DNA of 64,000 nucleotides, taken from contig NZ_JAHBCL010000003.1 of the NCBI RefSeq assembly GCF_018390735.1, positions 62,001 to 126,000 of the forward strand, given 5' to 3'. The stretch's first letter is position 1. Each line of letters starts with the position of its first letter. This DNA comes from Fusibacter paucivorans. Its GTDB lineage: Bacteria; Bacillota; Clostridia; Peptostreptococcales; Acidaminobacteraceae. Below are positions 22,551 through 51,513 of the stretch, piece by piece. The notes beneath the pieces are model-generated. The model was not told the DNA's origin, did not search any database, and worked only from the letters and a program-made list of their open reading frames with translations. A program made the translations under genes and the position numbers.

Positions 22551-22885
22551 AAAAAACTCCCGTTCTCAAGATTTTCACCTTGAGGACGAGAGTTAAACTT
22601 CGTGGTACCACCCCAATTTGTCAATATAGATTGACCTCATTTCAAGTACGGCAGATAAACTGTTGATACTCTAGCCCTCTAACGGTGGCGACCGTTGTAT
22701 TATCTCCCTTTCTTGGGTTCCATACAAAGCTCTGAGGCTTTATTCACCACGCCGTCACCTGCCCTTTTGCACCATCCAAGGGCTCTCTTAAAAGTCGTGC
22801 ATCGGTTACTCTTCTCTTCTCAGCTTTTTAAATGTCTTATCATTTTCAGACGAAGATTCTTTTCTGCATCACCTTCATCCTTAGT
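22551..22885 (-). ncRNA. T-box riboswitch leader for lysK
   Basis: Minus strand GGGGTGGTACCACG T-box, AGAGAGCCCTTGG stem I motif, terminator AACTCTCGTCCTCAAGGTGAAAATCTTGAGAACGGGAGTTTTTT; candidate Lys specifier AAA within GTGAATAAAGCC. 5' boundary approximate. Confidence 0.92.
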
Positions 22886-41808: not shown

Positions 41809-42492
41809 ATGGCTGAAGTCAGTAGAGCTTCAAGACGTGGTTCAAATCGAAATCGAAAGCCAAAGAAAAATCAGATTCCCTTTGGTGTCTTACTGGCACT
41901 ATTCGTCGTCGTCGTCGCCATCATCCTGAATGCCAAATCATCAACATTGGCACTATTCTGGATTACCGGTACGGCTTTCGGCTTTGTTCTTCAAAAGGGA
42001 CGTTTCTGTTTTACCGCATCCATGCGCGATCCTTATTTAACGGGAAGCACTTCGTTAACCCGTGCCGTTATCATTGCCTTTGCCTTAACAACCATAGGCT
42101 TTACGGCTATTAAATACGGCTATGCGGCGCAAGGACTACCTATTCCGGGAATGAGCTACGTTGCACCAATTAGTATAGCAACACTTATCGGCGCATTCAT
42201 GTTCGGTGTAGGCATGGTTATCGCAGGCGGTTGTGCTTCCGGTACGCTGATGCGCGTCGGCGAAGGTTTTTATATGAATATGATTTCACTGGTCTTCTTC
42301 GTGGTTGGTTCCCTTTTGGGCGCCCATGACTATGGCTGGTGGAAAGAGCACTTTATTTCAAAAGGGCCATCCGTGTTCCTACCGGATGTGTTTGGATGGA
42401 TGGGTGCAGTCGTCCTGCAACTACTCGTTTTAATGGCACTTTACGTCATTGCAGAAAAATACGAGGCAAAACGCGGCGGCGCTGGTCATTAA
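41809..42492 (+). CDS. YeeE/YedE family sulfur-compound transporter, N-terminal-half-like
   Basis: 227 aa multi-TM; LQKGRFCFTASMRD and VGMVIAGGCASGTLMRVGEG motifs of the Sulf_transp family. Confidence 0.88.
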   Translation: MAEVSRASRRGSNRNRKPKKNQIPFGVLLALFVVVVAIILNAKSSTLALFWITGTAFGFVLQKGRFCFTASMRDPYLTGSTSLTRAVIIAFALTTIGFTAIKYGYAAQGLPIPGMSYVAPISIATLIGAFMFGVGMVIAGGCASGTLMRVGEGFYMNMISLVFFVVGSLLGAHDYGWWKEHFISKGPSVFLPDVFGWMGAVVLQLLVLMALYVIAEKYEAKRGGAGH

Positions 42493-42549
42493 CGACAATG
42501 TTATCGACAAAGACGAATTACTTATATTATATCATTATGGAGGCTCATT

Positions 42550-42777
42550 ATGAAAGAAGTTATGTTAGATTGCTACGGTGAAGCGTGTCCAGTACCGCTC
42601 GTAAAAGCTCAAAATAAATTAAACGAACTCGAACTCGGCGATGTACTCATCGTTCAAATCGACCACAGCTGCGCCATGAAAAACGTCCCTGAATGGGCGC
42701 GCAAAGAAGGCTATAACGTTGAAGTTGAAGAAGTAGACGACGGCGAATGGGAAGTTATCATCGAAAAAAATAAATAA
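42550..42777 (+). CDS. TusA-family sulfurtransferase (copy 2 of 3)
   Basis: 75 aa; MLDCYGEACPVPLVKAQNKL. Confidence 0.93.
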   Translation: MKEVMLDCYGEACPVPLVKAQNKLNELELGDVLIVQIDHSCAMKNVPEWARKEGYNVEVEEVDDGEWEVIIEKNK

Positions 42778-42982
42778 GCATACTGTGCTGAAACAACGGC
42801 ATCTTTCACCGAAACGCAGACGATCCTATGTGATTATCGGCTGATAGATCCTCTAGAGAGAAAAAATAAACACGTATTGAAAAACTGTCTTAAGAAACTA
42901 AAAACCTGTTATTAAATTATCAAATCAGTTTCTGTTTAAGCATTAAACAGATCTCTATAAACGAAAAGAAAGAAGGCTCATT

Positions 42983-43210
42983 ATGAAAGAAGTTATGTTA
43001 GATTGTTACGGTGAAGCGTGTCCAGTACCGCTCGTGAAAGCTCAAAATAAATTAAACGAACTCGAACTCGGCGATGTACTCATCGTTCAAATCGACCACA
43101 GCTGTGCCATGAAAAACGTCCCTGAATGGGCGCGCAAAGAAGGCTATAACGTTGAAGTTGAAGAAGTAGATGACGGCGAGTGGGAAGTCATCATCGAAAA
43201 AAATAAATAA
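42983..43210 (+). CDS. TusA-family sulfurtransferase (copy 3 of 3), protein identical to copy 2
   Basis: 75/75 aa identical to 42550-42777; six synonymous nucleotide differences by eye. Confidence 0.93.
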   Translation: MKEVMLDCYGEACPVPLVKAQNKLNELELGDVLIVQIDHSCAMKNVPEWARKEGYNVEVEEVDDGEWEVIIEKNK

Positions 43211-43234
43211 GCACCCTTCTGGAGGTGAACTTTT

Positions 43235-43795
43235 TTGGAAAATAAACAAGTTAAATTTTTTGACCGCGTCAAAAAAAATGACTACTATCTCAAATGGATT
43301 AAGAGTCCGTTTACCTATGTTACCGCTGCGGTGCTTTTGTCACTATTTCAAATCGTAACCCTTGCCGCGACTGGTAATCCATGGGGCGTTTCAGGCGTCT
43401 TCGCTTATTGGGGCGCGTGGGTCTACGAAGCAATTGGCGGCAGTGTTGACAAATGGTATTACTTTGCGAGTTCCGGTGCACAGGCAACGCTCGAAAATGG
43501 CTTTTTAAATCATGCCGGTACCTTCCGCAACCTCGGTATTATTTTCGGCGCATTAGCGGCAACGCTTCTAGCATCCGGCTTTAAAATCAAAAAAATAAAA
43601 TCAAAAAAACAGATCATTGCTGCGACGCTTGGCGGCTTACTCATGGGGTATGGCGCACGATTGGCAGCAGGCTGCAACATCGGCGCACTTTACAGTGGGA
43701 TCGCATCGCTTTCGCTTTCAGGATGGGTTTTTGCCATTGGCATGTTCTTTGGCGCTATTGTCGGCAGTAAACTACTCGTAAAATACTTTATGTAA
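43235..43795 (+). CDS. YeeE/YedE family sulfur-compound transporter, C-terminal-half-like
   Basis: 186 aa multi-TM; GNPWGVSGVFAYWGAW and GYGARLAAGCNIGALYSGIASLSLSGWVF. Confidence 0.88.
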   Translation: MENKQVKFFDRVKKNDYYLKWIKSPFTYVTAAVLLSLFQIVTLAATGNPWGVSGVFAYWGAWVYEAIGGSVDKWYYFASSGAQATLENGFLNHAGTFRNLGIIFGALAATLLASGFKIKKIKSKKQIIAATLGGLLMGYGARLAAGCNIGALYSGIASLSLSGWVFAIGMFFGAIVGSKLLVKYFM

Positions 43796-43916
43796 TCATT
43801 CACATAATCTTGTTGTCATGCCCAAAGCCTATCGTCACATGATTGGTTCAATTGATATGTGACGAAGCGGCGGGCTATCATCTGATATTCCTATTTTATA
43901 GAATGTGAGGCAATAT

Positions 43917-45140
43917 ATGGCTAGAGAAAAAATCGTTGAGCATTATGACGTGATTATTATCGGCGGCGGTCCGGCTGGATTAAGCGCTGCGATTTATGCC
44001 GGTAGGGCAAGACTTAAAACACTCTTGCTTGAAAAGGCACTGGTAGGCGGCTTGGCTACCTACACCAATGAAATTGCAAACTATCCTGGTTTTCCAGATG
44101 CACCTAAGGGCGAGGCTATCACAGACCTCATGAAAGCACAGGCAAAAAATATGGACGTCAAGTTCAAATTAACAGCTGTTTCAAGTGTTCAGCTCGAAGG
44201 TGATGAAAAAATCGTCGAAACGTTTAGAAATAAATATATTGGTAAAACCGTCATTATCGCAACTGGCGGACGCCCAAGAACGACCGGCGCCTTAAATGAG
44301 GAAGGCTTCTTATTTGATAAAGGGATCAGCTTCTGTGCAACATGTGATGCCGCTGCAAACACCGACAAGCATGTCGTCGTTATCGGTTCCGGTGACGCTG
44401 CCATTGAAGAAGGTATGTTCCTTACGAAATTTGCGCGAAAAGTTACCGTTTCCGTCATGCACGATGAAGGCAAGATGGATTGCAATGAGATCGCTAAGGA
44501 AGCAGCGCTCGCCAATCCTAAGATGGCATTTGTCTGGAATTCAGTCGTTTCACGTTTTGAGGGTGATGAGCACCTCAAAACAGTCGTTCTAAAAAATGTT
44601 AAAACCGATGAAGAAATTCCAATTGACTGCGACAACTGTTTCGAATTTATTGGGTATCTGCCAAACACAGAACTCTTTGAAGGGCAAATCACCATGACCA
44701 ATCGCAAATACATTCCGGTTAATGAGAAAAAAGAAACCAACATCGAAGGTGTCTTTGCCGTTGGCGACGTTACGGATAAATGGCTTAAGCAAATTGCAAC
44801 AGCTGTTGGCGACGGTGCCATTGCCGGGACTGCGGCAGAACGTTATATCGCCGAAAAAGAAATCTTCGAAAATCGAATTCTCCAAAAAGAAAAGCCAGGT
44901 CTCATTTATGTTTACAATGCGATTGACGCGCCTTCGAGAGATTTTCTCACGCGCATTGAAGCCATTGAAACATCCAAGGCAGGCGCTATAGCCGTCAACC
45001 GCATTGACGTGTATAAGTCAAACGGGATTGCACTAAAACTCAACGTCGATCAAGTACCGGCTGTCGTCATTACAAAAGAAGGCGTCATTACCGAAAAACT
45101 TTATGATCTTGATGAACAAAAAATACTTTCTTTCCTATAA
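43917..45140 (+). CDS. Thioredoxin reductase-like FAD/NAD(P) oxidoreductase with C-terminal Trx-like domain
   Basis: Start at ATG 43917; YDVIIIGGGPAGLSAAIYAGRA, FCATCDAAAN redox CxxC, GSGDAAIEEGMFL; C-terminal ~85 aa with VPAVVI cis-Pro motif. Confidence 0.88.
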   Translation: MAREKIVEHYDVIIIGGGPAGLSAAIYAGRARLKTLLLEKALVGGLATYTNEIANYPGFPDAPKGEAITDLMKAQAKNMDVKFKLTAVSSVQLEGDEKIVETFRNKYIGKTVIIATGGRPRTTGALNEEGFLFDKGISFCATCDAAANTDKHVVVIGSGDAAIEEGMFLTKFARKVTVSVMHDEGKMDCNEIAKEAALANPKMAFVWNSVVSRFEGDEHLKTVVLKNVKTDEEIPIDCDNCFEFIGYLPNTELFEGQITMTNRKYIPVNEKKETNIEGVFAVGDVTDKWLKQIATAVGDGAIAGTAAERYIAEKEIFENRILQKEKPGLIYVYNAIDAPSRDFLTRIEAIETSKAGAIAVNRIDVYKSNGIALKLNVDQVPAVVITKEGVITEKLYDLDEQKILSFL

Positions 45141-45308: not shown

Positions 45309-46139
45309 TTACAGATTCAGAATAGCACGCGCTTCTGACGGCGTCGCCACAGTATTGCCGTAAGTTTCGACAATTTTTCTCGCACGTTTGACAAACTGCA
45401 CATTCCCCTCTGCCAAGACACCTTTTGAGTAAAAGACGTTGTCTTCCATCCCTACGCGCAAGTGTCCGCCTAGCGCTACCGTCGCATACATGATTTCCAT
45501 TGCGCTGGCGCCTACACCGAAGGCACTCCACGTTGAATCCGGTGCAACAGTGCGCATGGTTTCCACCATAAAAAGCAGGTTTTTAAGCGAACCTCTGATA
45601 CCACCCGCAGCGCCCATGCACATTTGAAAGTGGAGCGGCGCCTTTAGGACCCCTTTTTTTAAATAATAGGCCGCATTGTAAATCATACCAGGATCAAATG
45701 CTTCAATTTCCGGTTTCACACCACATGCCTGCATTGTTTCACCCAGCGCCTCAAGAAAATGCGGCGGGTTCAGAAAAAGTGCATGATGCTGCCAATTCAT
45801 CGAACCGCAGTCAAATGTGCCAATATCCGGCCTCAGTTCTTTTAAATGCTGCATGCGCGTTTCGTCCGTCGCATGGAGGTCACCTGAAGTCGTCATATTG
45901 ACAACGATATCACAATCCTTATAGGCACGAATATATGCCAGTGTCTCCCGAAATTTCTCAACATTCATCGTGCCATTGCCTGCGTCATCACGCATGTGAA
46001 GATGGCAGATCGCTGCGCCTGCCTGCCAGCACCTATAAACATCATCCGCAATTTCCCGCGGCGTCATGGGAATATTGGGATTATCTGTTTTCTTGGGCCA
46101 TGCCCCTGTTGTCGCCACTGTGATAATGGTCTTTTGCAT
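45309..46139 (-). CDS. BKACE family (3-keto-5-aminohexanoate cleavage-like, DUF849) protein
   Basis: Start at ATG 46139; TVATTGAWPKKTDNPNIPMTPREIADD, CHLHMRDDAGNGTM, GGHLRVGMEDN motifs. Confidence 0.93.
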   Translation of the reverse strand: MQKTIITVATTGAWPKKTDNPNIPMTPREIADDVYRCWQAGAAICHLHMRDDAGNGTMNVEKFRETLAYIRAYKDCDIVVNMTTSGDLHATDETRMQHLKELRPDIGTFDCGSMNWQHHALFLNPPHFLEALGETMQACGVKPEIEAFDPGMIYNAAYYLKKGVLKAPLHFQMCMGAAGGIRGSLKNLLFMVETMRTVAPDSTWSAFGVGASAMEIMYATVALGGHLRVGMEDNVFYSKGVLAEGNVQFVKRARKIVETYGNTVATPSEARAILNL

Positions 46140-46303
46140 CGGATCACTCCTTCCCACTCATAATGTTAGTGATTGTTTTCATTCTGCTCAGTTAAGTTAA
46201 AAGCCTTCGCTAACTCCTTTGCACTTTCTTACCTTTGTTTTTTTAACGACTTCGAATGCTTAATCATATGTCTGTACACTGTCGAATATGCACCTTTCAT
46301 TCA

Positions 46304-48274
46304 TTAGGCTTTACTAAATTGTTCAATGGCTTTTCGACCTTTTGGCGTAATCATCAGTTTCCTTTTAAAGAGTCCTTTTTCTTCGATATAACCTCGACGC
46401 GTCAAGTGTGAAGAGATTGCCGCCATTTGCATCGAGGCAATGCCGTTCTTTTCTACAAATGCCGCTTGGTGTTCCGGGTTGCGCTCAACTGTCTTTAAAA
46501 GTTCTAAATACATGGGCGATAAAAACTGCACCGATAACTGCCTCTCGTGTTCACTCAGCGGATCGAGTGCTTTTTGTCCTTTCTCCGTTAGCTCAAATGT
46601 AAAGAAATTAGATCCCGTCAGCCCCATGCGCATCAAATAACCGCCTCGATCCAACCTTTCAACGGCTGCACCGGAAATTTTCGAATCTACACCGAGTGAG
46701 TCTGTAATATCAGCCATATACTGATGTCCAAGACGCATTAATGTCAAGATTTCCAAATCAATCTTTTCGAGTTTCACATCTAAACGATTATGATCATTCG
46801 GGATGCGTTCCCAGCTTTGTTCCCCGTAATAACGCGGTTTGCCAAAATAAGATGCAATAACGGCAACGATCAATGTTACGGCAAGCCCCAACGTTGCTAA
46901 AAAAACATACTGTCCAATCGAAAAGATTTTTGTTAAATCCAGTAACGTAAAGACAGCCATCGTCACCATACCACACACAGCTCCCCAAAGAGCACCTTTT
47001 GCATTAAATTTCGGCCAAATAGCACCAAGTCCCAGCAATACTGCCGGCGGCACGAGCCATGAATTGGCAAAAGCAAAGAGATAGGTCGGTCCACCTGGAA
47101 ATTGACATAATATAAACGTGACAATCCCGACAAAGAGCATAATAATTTTCGACATTTTTAGTTTTTTTGCAGCATCTGCATTGGGATTGATAATACGCTG
47201 ATAAATATCGCGATTGGCAACGGCAGAAGCCCCAAGTGCCGAAGTTGATGCTGTCGAAATCGATGCCGCGCAGGCACTAATCACTACAATACTGCCGAAG
47301 AGCGGCATAAAGGTGCTTGCGATAAAGCCGTAAGTTCCCGTTGCCAGAATGCGACCACCATTGAAAGTAAGCATTTCTGGGTAAAAAGCTCCCATATAGC
47401 TTCCGACAAAACTCAACGGAATCATAAAAATGATCAACAGAATAATTGCTGCCAAAACAAACGATTTCCGTGCGACGTGTTCACTTCGACAATTGGCGAT
47501 TTTCATCCAATAGTAATTGTTCCCCCAGACGAGTGCCGCCGCAAAGCAGATAAAGAAATTGAGGAATGAAGGATACGTCAACTTCATACCGGCAAGCTGA
47601 CCGGCAAAGCCATCTGTTCCCAACGCGCCCGGCCCCCAGTTCGCCGCTAATGCCTCAGTCCATCCGAAACGACTTGCTAATAAAAAGAAGACCGTTGGCA
47701 CGACAATGACGCCAATGGTAATTTGGAATAAATCTGTAATCGTCGTCGCCCAGAGTCCGGAAATAAACGTAAAAATGATAATGACACCAAAAATAACTGC
47801 CGTAATCAACGGGCGGCTCCATCCCGTAAATGCCGCTATATTGTCAACACTTGAAACGACGTTGTTTGCCATAATTCCGCACATACCGATAACCGATGTA
47901 ATGGCAACCACCGATCGCGTCTTGCTGTCATACCGCATCTCCAAATACTCCGGCAATGTTTGTGCACCGCTTCTGCGAATAAAATTCGAATACAGAAGGC
48001 CAAAGAGCATAAGCCCGCATATTGCATAAACGGCACCCCAGCCAATCCCGCCAATCAGACCATAATTAAGTGTAAAAGCCGGCGCCAGCGTCACCGTCGT
48101 GCCGGCGAAGCCAATCGCACAAACGCCAACAATATTAATAGGTGTTGAAATTTCCCGTCCCGCTAAGACAAAATCTGAAGATTCTTTAACCCATTTTTTA
48201 CTAAAAAGACCTGCGCCGATAAGAAATCCGCAAAAGATAACGAAAATGATGATAAATATTGTACTAGACCCCAT
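46304..48274 (-). CDS. Sodium:solute symporter family protein with C-terminal winged-helix-like extension
   Basis: 656 aa; SSS core (DFVLAGREISTPINIVGVCAIGFAGTTVTLAPA...) followed by ~160 aa soluble region resembling two MarR/PadR-like wHTH units. Confidence 0.87.
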   Translation of the reverse strand: MGSSTIFIIIFVIFCGFLIGAGLFSKKWVKESSDFVLAGREISTPINIVGVCAIGFAGTTVTLAPAFTLNYGLIGGIGWGAVYAICGLMLFGLLYSNFIRRSGAQTLPEYLEMRYDSKTRSVVAITSVIGMCGIMANNVVSSVDNIAAFTGWSRPLITAVIFGVIIIFTFISGLWATTITDLFQITIGVIVVPTVFFLLASRFGWTEALAANWGPGALGTDGFAGQLAGMKLTYPSFLNFFICFAAALVWGNNYYWMKIANCRSEHVARKSFVLAAIILLIIFMIPLSFVGSYMGAFYPEMLTFNGGRILATGTYGFIASTFMPLFGSIVVISACAASISTASTSALGASAVANRDIYQRIINPNADAAKKLKMSKIIMLFVGIVTFILCQFPGGPTYLFAFANSWLVPPAVLLGLGAIWPKFNAKGALWGAVCGMVTMAVFTLLDLTKIFSIGQYVFLATLGLAVTLIVAVIASYFGKPRYYGEQSWERIPNDHNRLDVKLEKIDLEILTLMRLGHQYMADITDSLGVDSKISGAAVERLDRGGYLMRMGLTGSNFFTFELTEKGQKALDPLSEHERQLSVQFLSPMYLELLKTVERNPEHQAAFVEKNGIASMQMAAISSHLTRRGYIEEKGLFKRKLMITPKGRKAIEQFSKA

Positions 48275-48293: not shown

Positions 48294-49064
48294 CTACTCA
48301 ATAAAAGCAACCGCACGACACCACCCGGCACTTGCCGCCTTAATTTTAACAGGCAGACAGCTGACTTTAAAACCAAATGCCGGCAATTGATCTAAATTCG
48401 TCATTTTTTCAATATGACAATAAGCTTTGATTCTGCCAACGCGATGCGCTTCCCAAATAATATCAACATCACGCGATTCCGCAAATCGCTCTGCCTCAAA
48501 CGGCAGCGGTACATCCCAGCTCCAGCCATCTGTCCCAACGACGTGTACACCATGTTCAATGAGCCAAAGTGTTGCTTCTGCGCTCATTCCGGCACCTGCA
48601 AGCAAATACTCGGGTTTTCCCCACTGCTTATCAGCACCTGTTTGCAGCAGTACAATATCGCCTTCTTTCAACTGATAATCAATTTCTTTGAAATACATCT
48701 CAACATCTTCTGCCGTAATCTTGTAGCCGTCCGGCTTGCTGCTGAAATCCATCTTAACACCATCGCCAAGACACCATTCAAGCGGGATTTCATCAATGGT
48801 CCAAGCGCGTTCTCCGCCGTTCATCGTCGGATAATAATGGTAGGGGGCGTCAAGATGTGTGCCGGAATGCGTCGTGAGCTGAATGTTCTCAATCGCCCAG
48901 CCATTACCTTCCGGCAAGTCATCAACGGTGATATTGTCATTAAAGTAGGTTGTCATCGATTGTGCCGTGTCTTTGTGATTCAAATACTCAATTCTTGGAA
49001 TTTGAGGTTTTGGATCGCTTGGCAAACCATCCTCCACGGCGATTGACAAATCAATGATTTTCAT
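48294..49064 (-). CDS. Cyclase family protein (kynurenine formamidase-like)
   Basis: Start at ATG 49064; LTTHSGTHLDAPYHYYP metal-binding HxGTHxDxPxH, GDIVLLQTGADKQWG. Confidence 0.92.
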   Translation of the reverse strand: MKIIDLSIAVEDGLPSDPKPQIPRIEYLNHKDTAQSMTTYFNDNITVDDLPEGNGWAIENIQLTTHSGTHLDAPYHYYPTMNGGERAWTIDEIPLEWCLGDGVKMDFSSKPDGYKITAEDVEMYFKEIDYQLKEGDIVLLQTGADKQWGKPEYLLAGAGMSAEATLWLIEHGVHVVGTDGWSWDVPLPFEAERFAESRDVDIIWEAHRVGRIKAYCHIEKMTNLDQLPAFGFKVSCLPVKIKAASAGWCRAVAFIE

Positions 49065-49143
49065 ATGCTGACTCCTTTCCATCCTATCTGTCATTGATAG
49101 ACCCGTCTATCAGTGACCTCTTTTAGTAACATCATTTACTATT

Positions 49144-49159
49144 GCAAAGGTGATGCCAA
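49144..49159 (-). promoter_or_regulatory. Sigma-54 (-24/-12) promoter upstream of the cyclase operon
   Basis: Minus strand TTGGCAT-CACCT-TTGC (consensus TTGGCAC-N5-TTGC), ~80 nt upstream of the ATG at 49064, opposite a divergent sigma-54 activator gene. Confidence 0.78.
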
Positions 49160-49230: not shown

Positions 49231-49338
49231 TGTCAATATTTGTGTACACGATTTCATACATAAAAGCCGTGGAAACATTGTATTTTTAAGGCATTTACGC
49301 CGTGTCAATATATATTGACACGTAAATATTTATTGACA
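49231..49338. promoter_or_regulatory. Candidate upstream activator sequences for the sigma-54 regulator
   Basis: Perfect 18-bp palindrome TGTCAATATATATTGACA (49303-49320), abutting imperfect copy (49321-49338), and TGTCAATATTTGTGTACA (49231-49248). Confidence 0.7.
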
Positions 49339-49421
49339 CATCATAAAGCCTCAGCCTATAATGAAGTCAAAAGCGAGTGTTTGTCGGACCATCTTTTTGC
49401 ATTAGCGTGTGGGAGGCATTG

Positions 49422-50801
49422 ATGTCAAAAAACAAATTGTCTTTTGAAATTATGCAGGAATTCATCAATCAGTTAGACGGCATGGCCGTTCTCGACAAGG
49501 AAGGTTATTATACGTACGTTAGCCCGGGCTGGGAGCGCTACACAGGTTTTCATGCATCAGAAGTACTCGGTCGCAAAGTATGGGAAATCATCCCTGAAAG
49601 CCATGCGACAGAAGTTTTTCAAACCGGTAAAGCCGTCACCCGCGGCTTAGTGTCCTTTAACGGTATCCCCGCATTCACCACCTATTTTCCGCGGTTTGAC
49701 CAAAACGGCGAACTCTGCGGCATTATGCTCTACATCGTTATCCAAGGCAAAGAAAGCGTCGCCCAGTTTCAAACGCGAATCATCGCCTTATCTTCTCAAA
49801 TTGAATTCTACCGCAAAGAGCTTTCAATGGAGCGTGGCGCCAAATACAACCTTGACAATATCATTGGCGAAAGCAAGGCCATCTTGGATCTCAAACATAA
49901 AATCCTGCAGGCTTCTCGATCCTCCTCTACCGTACTTATCGAGGGCGAAACAGGCAGCGGTAAAGAGTTGATCGCTCATGCCATTCATACACTCAGTCCA
50001 AGATGCAGCGCCAATTTCGTGCGTGTCAATTGTTCTGCTATTCCCAATGAACTTATGGAATCTGAATTCTTTGGCTATGCCGCCGGTGCGTTTACCGGCG
50101 CTTCTCGAAAAGGCAAAATTGGACGATTTGAGCTCGCCGACAGTGGAACACTTTTTTTAGACGAGATCAATCTGCTGCCTATGACGATGCAGCCGAAATT
50201 TTTGAGGGTTTTGCAAGAACACGAGATTGATCCCGTCGGCAGTTTAAAAAGTCAATTCGTCGATGTTCGCGTCATTGCCGCATCCAATATTGAATTGGAA
50301 CAATTGGTTGAAAAGGGCAGTTTTCGAAGTGACCTCTACTATCGCCTCAATGTTATTCGCATTTCAGCGCCCCCATTACGGACACGCAAAGAAGATATTC
50401 CGCTGCTGGTTCAAAATTTTATCAGCCGACTCAATAAGCAGCTCGGTATGATGATTGGCGATATTGGTTCAGAGGCTTTAAACTTTTTAATGGCTTATGA
50501 TTGGCCGGGCAATGTCCGTGAACTTCAAAACGCAGTGGAAAGTGCTATGAATCAGACAGACCACACTATTTTAACCATCAAAGACTTTTCACAGCTCACC
50601 GAACGAATCCGTATGCGTGAACGCAAACAGGCCGTTACCCATTACAAACTGATTCCCGCAAAACAAGCATTTGAAAAAAGCCTTATCCAAGATGCGCTAA
50701 TGGCTTGTGAAGGCAATCGAAAAAAAGCTGCGGAACTGCTCGGTATTTCACGAACGATGCTTTACAATAAGATGGCGCAGTATGAAATTGGGGATTCCTG
50801 A
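49422..50801 (+). CDS. PAS-AAA+-Fis sigma-54-dependent transcriptional activator
   Basis: Start at ATG 49422; PAS domain, GETGSGKELIAHAIH Walker A, AGAFTGASRKGKIGRFE (GAFTGA), C-terminal Fis HTH. Confidence 0.96.
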   Translation: MSKNKLSFEIMQEFINQLDGMAVLDKEGYYTYVSPGWERYTGFHASEVLGRKVWEIIPESHATEVFQTGKAVTRGLVSFNGIPAFTTYFPRFDQNGELCGIMLYIVIQGKESVAQFQTRIIALSSQIEFYRKELSMERGAKYNLDNIIGESKAILDLKHKILQASRSSSTVLIEGETGSGKELIAHAIHTLSPRCSANFVRVNCSAIPNELMESEFFGYAAGAFTGASRKGKIGRFELADSGTLFLDEINLLPMTMQPKFLRVLQEHEIDPVGSLKSQFVDVRVIAASNIELEQLVEKGSFRSDLYYRLNVIRISAPPLRTRKEDIPLLVQNFISRLNKQLGMMIGDIGSEALNFLMAYDWPGNVRELQNAVESAMNQTDHTILTIKDFSQLTERIRMRERKQAVTHYKLIPAKQAFEKSLIQDALMACEGNRKKAAELLGISRTMLYNKMAQYEIGDS

Positions 50802-50931: not shown

Positions 50932-51513
50932 ATGCCCAAGATGACAAATCGTGCCAAAAAGGCAATTGCAACAAAAAAACGCATCTATGAATGTGGTGTA
51001 AAATTAATGCACGAAAAGGGATTCGGTGAAATCACCATTAGTGAAATTGCTAAAGAAGCGGGTATATCTGTTGGTACGTACTATTACTATTTCGATTCAA
51101 AGACAGACTTGTTCAAAGAGATTTTCAGCCGCGTTGATGACTTTTTTATGACATGGGTTAAAGAACCTATGCAAAGCGACAGCTATAGCGAACGCATCAT
51201 TAGCTTTTTTGAACACTATGCAAAACTTGTTGAAGATGATGGCATCACAACCATTCGAAAACTATATACACCTGAAAATAAAATGTTTACCGTTGAAGGC
51301 CAATTCATGCAAAATGTCCTTAAAGAAGTCATCGAGGAAGGGCAGCGATCCGGTGAACTCAACACCTTATACAGCGCCCAGCGCTATACGAATTATCTCT
51401 TTGTCGTCGGCAGGGGAATCGTCTTCGAGTGGTGTTTAAGAGACGGGAAATTTGATTTAAAACAACAGTTTCGAACCATTATTAGTTTAGTTGTTAAGAG
51501 TATGGCCAAATAA
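50932..51513 (+). CDS. TetR/AcrR family transcriptional regulator
   Basis: 193 aa; KRIYECGVKLMHEKGFGEITISEIAKEAGISVGTYYYYFDSKTDLF. Confidence 0.95.
   Translation: MPKMTNRAKKAIATKKRIYECGVKLMHEKGFGEITISEIAKEAGISVGTYYYYFDSKTDLFKEIFSRVDDFFMTWVKEPMQSDSYSERIISFFEHYAKLVEDDGITTIRKLYTPENKMFTVEGQFMQNVLKEVIEEGQRSGELNTLYSAQRYTNYLFVVGRGIVFEWCLRDGKFDLKQQFRTIISLVVKSMAK

Follow-up and report, generated by a model that had tools for sequence, protein, structure and literature searches.

A conserved fusion of a sodium/solute symporter with a tandem winged-helix tail and its possible role in contact-based regulation

In a stretch of 64,000 nucleotides of Fusibacter paucivorans DNA (referred to as the window) we analyzed a gene that encodes a sodium/solute symporter (SSS) fused to a C-terminal tail of two winged helix-turn-helix units (wHTH1 and wHTH2). 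Judging from the homologues detected, the fusion has been conserved in many anaerobes of gut and soil. Our first choice for its function, to which we assign a probability of roughly 45%, is a tail that acts by contact as a regulatory module on a Na+-coupled carrier and that would either relay or adjust transport. This choice is based on a conserved linker between carrier and tail, on the acidic character of wHTH1 and on an activator already existing at the locus. A preliminary description of the sequence had suggested a one-protein transcription factor. Part of this suggestion stands, as the symporter indeed carries on its cytoplasmic side a tandem wHTH module of which wHTH2 is basic, but the acidic wHTH1, the operon's own activator and a related operon running with a tail-less permease of the MFS type speak against it.

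The open reading frame of 656 amino acids at 46304..48274 was confirmed. It is located on the minus strand, which the preliminary description had not stated, with the stop codon at 46304-46306; a reading on the plus strand is ruled out by many stops. The symporter domain comprises residues 1-476 (46847..48274) according to Pfam SSF, AlphaFold2, the positive-inside rule and Foldseek. It is followed by the linker, delimited by an alignment of 20 sequences (residues 477-501, 46772..46846), by the acidic wHTH1, assigned from Pfam searches on tails, AlphaFold2 and charge (residues 502-583, 46526..46771), and by the basic wHTH2 with the wing GLFKRKL, assigned from AlphaFold2 and charge (residues 584-656, 46307..46525), all on the minus strand.

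The transporter part is complete, as had been proposed. Pfam SSF matches residues 35-435 with an E-value of 9e-18 and 64.7 bits against a curated cut-off of 22.8, and an AlphaFold2 model of the full protein, at lower confidence (pLDDT 76.5), contains 13 TM helices and the two-unit tail. In whole-protein Foldseek searches SGLT, SiaT and CHT were matched. AlphaFold2, the positive-inside rule and Foldseek predict a LeuT-type core with the C terminus on the cytoplasmic side. Lysine and arginine counts are 24.3 on the C-terminal side and 3.5 on the opposite side, which places the tail in the cytoplasm. Residues A337, S340, T341 and D181 are invariant in the 20-sequence alignment. In our own reading of an alignment to vSGLT, anchored by a conserved D-I-Y motif, A337, S340 and T341 correspond to the Na2 site, which is made up of an Ala and two Ser/Thr in core helix 8, and D181 maps to the Na3 region; both sites are described for SSS proteins in a 2021 review on prokaryotic members (PMC7918813). 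With its SSF domain, 13 TM helices, SGLT/SiaT-like fold and these invariant residues, the carrier looks functional with an apparently intact Na+ site. Four other SSS proteins of the same genome, each of ~500 amino acids, have no tail, which rules out that the tail is a general trait of the SSS proteins in this genome.

Helix-turn-helix geometry is present in the tail as well. Based on the tail alignment AlphaFold2 predicts two helix-helix-helix-hairpin-helix units (pLDDT 88.7, pTM 0.83). In the full protein the Pfam family HTH_27 matches residues 509-566 slightly below its cut-off (20.1 vs 22.2 bits); when the tail is scanned alone the match rises above it (25.6 bits). Among homologous tails 17 of 18 match HTH_27 or HTH_45, and 14 of 18 match MarR_2. 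The tail profile finds MarR/SlyA structures in the PDB (E 0.0015 and weaker), and Foldseek returns ScpB, the MarR-family proteins ZitR and ScoC, and TFIIIC, all as weak matches with a best E-value of 0.0017. A profile comparison of the two units yields an hhalign probability of 92% (E 6e-7), so that they are most simply explained as diverged copies of one another. Taken from sequence profiles and models, these data support the view that both units belong to the MarR kind of fold and that the module is MarR-derived. The MarR part of the earlier MarR/PadR assignment is thereby retained through HTH_27, MarR_2 and Foldseek, and no specific support was found for PadR. The architecture had also been set apart from SSS-histidine kinases, and neither Pfam nor NCBIfam gave a STAC, PAS, HisKA or HATPase match; an identity as a CbrA-type kinase was rejected for lack of kinase domains. 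The linker residues Y482, W488 and R497 are invariant in 20 sequences, which suggests docking rather than a loose tether. The window tail contains no cysteine and no cysteine column is invariant in the tail alignment.

We scanned 85,462 species genomes with a sequence pattern that finds close relatives only, and the resulting counts are thus lower bounds. The scan yielded 19 full-length homologues from further genomes with 52-95% identity and one cut by a contig end, distributed over Oscillospiraceae and other Clostridia, Enterococcus and Spirochaetes. Flavonifractor plautii ATCC 29863 and Eubacterium ramulus are examples of bacteria with this architecture. Since these full-length copies are joined by more in whole-genome samples, the fusion is real, and an assembly or annotation artefact is ruled out. 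Overall, at least 24 homologues of 29-95% identity share the combination of a symporter and a tandem wHTH. The fusion is carried by 6 of 399 sampled genomes of the phylum, including the window's own; in the window's family three genomes hold it in full length, one as an N-terminal part cut by the contig end and one as a decayed remnant. The latter (L042, G688:C33:76817-77077) is a fragment of a wHTH2 tail that is interrupted by an in-frame stop and lacks the transporter; it is located beside a mechanosensitive-channel-like gene. The most distant homologue, in genome G497, has 29% identity and keeps both wHTH units. In a profile search of the 399 genomes strong matches to the module occurred only within SSS fusions (one of them divided by the end of a contig). 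The existence of the module on its own or in other fusions was rejected for these genomes: the weak matches are ordinary MarR-sized proteins, and L066, the only long ORF in this group, is unrelated. Between the window and its closest relative (L001) dN/dS is 0.03 for wHTH1, and for wHTH2 dN is 0.035 with dS saturated. Mean tail identity is ~60% across distant anaerobes, and the tail diverges in step with the TM part (correlation 0.7). These substitution patterns indicate strong purifying selection on the tail.

The two units differ in their electrostatic properties, with a mean net charge of -3.8 for wHTH1 and +6.8 for wHTH2. For comparison we used 22 ordinary MarR-like proteins matched by the same profile and picked by similarity to wHTH1, which makes them a fair rather than a random set and not one of proven DNA binders. 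The recognition helix of wHTH1 contains an invariant Glu and Asp and has a net charge of -0.1 vs +1.5 in the controls, and its core is at -1.8 vs +1.7. Counted by eye, 21 of the 22 controls have a D-x-R wing, which wHTH1 lacks. The recognition helix (+1.8) and wing (+2.7) of wHTH2 are as basic as those of the MarR controls or more so; its wing is short and also lacks D-x-R, and R626, R638 and K645 are invariant. Given the charges of the unit, its helix and its wing, wHTH2 could be compatible with DNA.

The symporter gene is preceded, at a distance of 19 nt, by the gene of a cyclase-family (PF04199) metal hydrolase (48294..49094, minus strand), its probable operon partner, and a gene for a beta-keto acid cleavage enzyme (BKACE) lies downstream (45309..46157, minus strand). 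A PAS-AAA-Fis sigma-54 activator (EBP) is encoded divergently (49377..50801, plus strand), and the cyclase-SSS operon is preceded by a sigma-54 -24/-12 promoter, TGGCAT-N5-TTGCA (49143..49158, minus strand). The cyclase gene adjoins the SSS gene in all 20 scanned loci, BKACE is found in 15 of the 20, and many loci contain a thiolase and a CoA-transferase. The activator is present in 17 of the 18 loci with enough flanking sequence, the exception being L019; in L010 and L011 the sequence stops at the cyclase gene, which places them outside this count. The first gene of the operon, usually the cyclase gene, is preceded by a sigma-54 promoter with 14-15 of 15 points in the window as well as in all 18 other loci tested from the first scan. 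Such a promoter was found in two of four further loci; L093 and L076 showed none in the gap examined. No Rfam match pointed to an RNA element near the locus.

Two natural variants separate the tail from the rest of the operon. In genome G626 (L093, G626:C3) activator, BKACE, cyclase and thiolase are kept and a tail-less MFS permease of 418 amino acids occupies the place of the SSS-wHTH protein, so the logic of the operon does not require the tail. Conversely, the G497 homologue (L071, G497:C29) keeps its tail but belongs to another operon, from which cyclase, BKACE and sigma-54 activator are absent, and thus the tail does not require the activator. The neighbors of L071 are molybdenum hydroxylase genes, UbiD, an MFS gene and a GAF-PucR regulator.

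In the intergenic region between the cyclase and activator genes we found a perfect palindrome, TGTCAATATATATTGACA (20 bp as GTGTCAATATATATTGACAC; 49303..49320, no strand), of which this is the only perfect copy in the genome. It is positioned ~150 bp upstream of the sigma-54 promoter, and sites of sigma-54 activators are usually located at about that upstream distance. L001, the only other locus with a TetR gene, has the same palindrome with one mismatch; the TetR-family regulator of the window is located downstream of the activator (50932-51513, plus strand). An imperfect second copy with two mismatches is present at 22619-22636 between two minus-strand genes. Palindrome sequences differ from locus to locus. 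No tail-specific operator common to the loci was found, and the varying palindromes fit activator sites. With its position upstream of the promoter and the L001 copy accompanied by a TetR gene, the palindrome is likely a site of the activator (or of TetR), these being its simpler owners.

In the explanation we favor, the carrier would mediate Na+-coupled uptake of the compound that the cyclase/BKACE catabolic operon acts on, or of a near precursor of this compound, and transcription of the operon would be driven by sigma-54 and the divergent activator. The duplicated wHTH module would be kept near the membrane by the linker and would regulate by contact. It may read the conformation of the transporter, or alternatively a cytoplasmic ligand or partner, and may adjust transport or the lifetime of the transporter; or it may relay the transport status to a soluble partner, e.g. 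the co-encoded PAS/sigma-54 activator. That activator cannot always be the partner, since the G497 homologue has none. Within the module wHTH1 would be a protein-interaction unit, and wHTH2 may bind a partner, an anionic membrane or, less likely, DNA. By analogy, a regulatory or docking tail is favored by precedents of wHTH proteins acting by protein contact (FeoC on FeoB; ScpB). It is weakened by the helix and wing of wHTH2, which are more basic than a pure protein-contact domain needs.

The same basic helix and wing, together with the three invariant basic residues, would suit a membrane-tethered transcription factor, in which the symporter senses its substrate by transport and the cytoplasmic tail, chiefly through wHTH2, binds to its own promoter or to others. 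Genuine wHTH folds of MarR descent, the unique palindrome and the occurrence of SSS domains in signalling proteins, as described in PMC7918813, agree with such a role. However, wHTH1 is acidic and without the DNA-contact features of MarR proteins, the palindrome takes the place of an activator site and varies by locus, the operon already possesses a dedicated activator and a sigma-54 promoter, and the G626 operon runs with a tail-less permease. We therefore regard this role as possible but doubtful. That the secondary transporter itself is the transcription factor, with its transport cycle switching DNA binding by its own tail, appears unlikely to us.

A tail concerned with transport only, which on binding a cytoplasmic ligand gates the carrier by autoinhibition or shields and stabilizes it against proteolysis with no link to gene expression, would account for the conserved linker adjoining TM13. 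Cytoplasmic regulatory domains are common among transporters, and FeoC protects FeoB (PMC10710835). Yet no ligand-binding pocket or known ligand domain was identified in the tail and the four other SSS proteins of the genome manage without one, making this reading improbable. The decayed fragment L042 in a related genome would fit an old fusion retained by chance and without function, but the tail identity among distant anaerobes, the very low dN/dS and the retention of the tail even where overall identity has dropped to 29% leave hardly any room for a relic. Contact-based regulation remains our first choice.

The individual components of the fusion resemble several known systems. ScpB, a kleisin partner in condensin, is likewise a tandem wHTH protein and has a protein-interaction role. 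It is the top Foldseek match of the tail, albeit a weak one (E 0.002) with an overall TM-score of only ~0.3 and no sequence relationship shown. MarR-family regulators have the same kind of fold, with clear MarR/HTH_27 sequence matches for wHTH1, but here the units are fused to a transporter and wHTH1 lacks the basic helix and the D-x-R wing. Symporters of the PutP, SiaT and vSGLT type share the symporter domain, its fold and the Na+-site residues, but have no wHTH tail. Like the window protein, the SSS-STAC-PAS-histidine kinases CbrA and MxtR (CrbS) have a 13-TM SSS domain at the N terminus and a cytoplasmic signalling module at the C terminus, which in our case is the tandem wHTH instead of STAC, PAS and kinase domains. 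Furthermore, the Na+-site residues are kept here, whereas according to PMC7918813 those of the Na2 site are not retained in CbrA, whose partner is the response regulator CbrB with a sigma-54 interaction domain. FeoC is a wHTH protein that exerts its effect by attaching to the transporter FeoB, which it protects from FtsH (PMC5519574, PMC10710835). In both cases a wHTH is positioned at the cytoplasmic side of a transporter, with action by protein contact described for FeoC and proposed for our tail. FeoC is, however, a separate small Fe-S-cluster protein, while here two units without a conserved Cys cluster are fused to an unrelated carrier.

The combination of cyclase and BKACE recalls anaerobic phloroglucinol breakdown. 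The phloroglucinol cluster of Clostridium scatologenes (PMC10470551) also encodes a cyclase-family ring hydrolase, a BKACE-type lyase, a transporter and a regulator; its transporter is described as a "major family transporter", unlike the SSS-wHTH protein. Near the window locus we recognised neither a phloroglucinol reductase nor a phloroglucinol dehydrogenase.

Fusions of SSS domains with kinase, PAS, STAC, GAF and PP2C domains are named in the 2021 review, and a term search of it found no winged-helix fusion (PMC7918813). The literature accessible to us, which covers the field in part, contained nothing specific on transporter-wHTH or SSS-wHTH fusions. We therefore provisionally regard the fusion as undescribed, and as a further type among the SSS proteins fused to signalling domains, with a tail of a new type. 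The SSS-kinase fusions raised the question, still unsolved, of whether the act of transport is what is sensed. With its apparently intact Na+ site, compact operon, own sigma-54 activator and a tail-less natural relative, the SSS-wHTH protein offers a clean system in which it can be tested how the conformational cycle of a carrier passes to a cytoplasmic domain.

Elsewhere in the window, a YeeE/YedE-type sulfur transporter (41809-43795, plus strand) is split into two half proteins covering profile positions 1-153 and 167-310. Between the halves two near-identical TusA/SirA-like genes are arranged in tandem (about 42551-42778 and 42984-43211). Adjoining the split transporter, a protein resembling thioredoxin reductase, with a thioredoxin-like stretch at its C terminus, is encoded at 43905-45140 on the plus strand.
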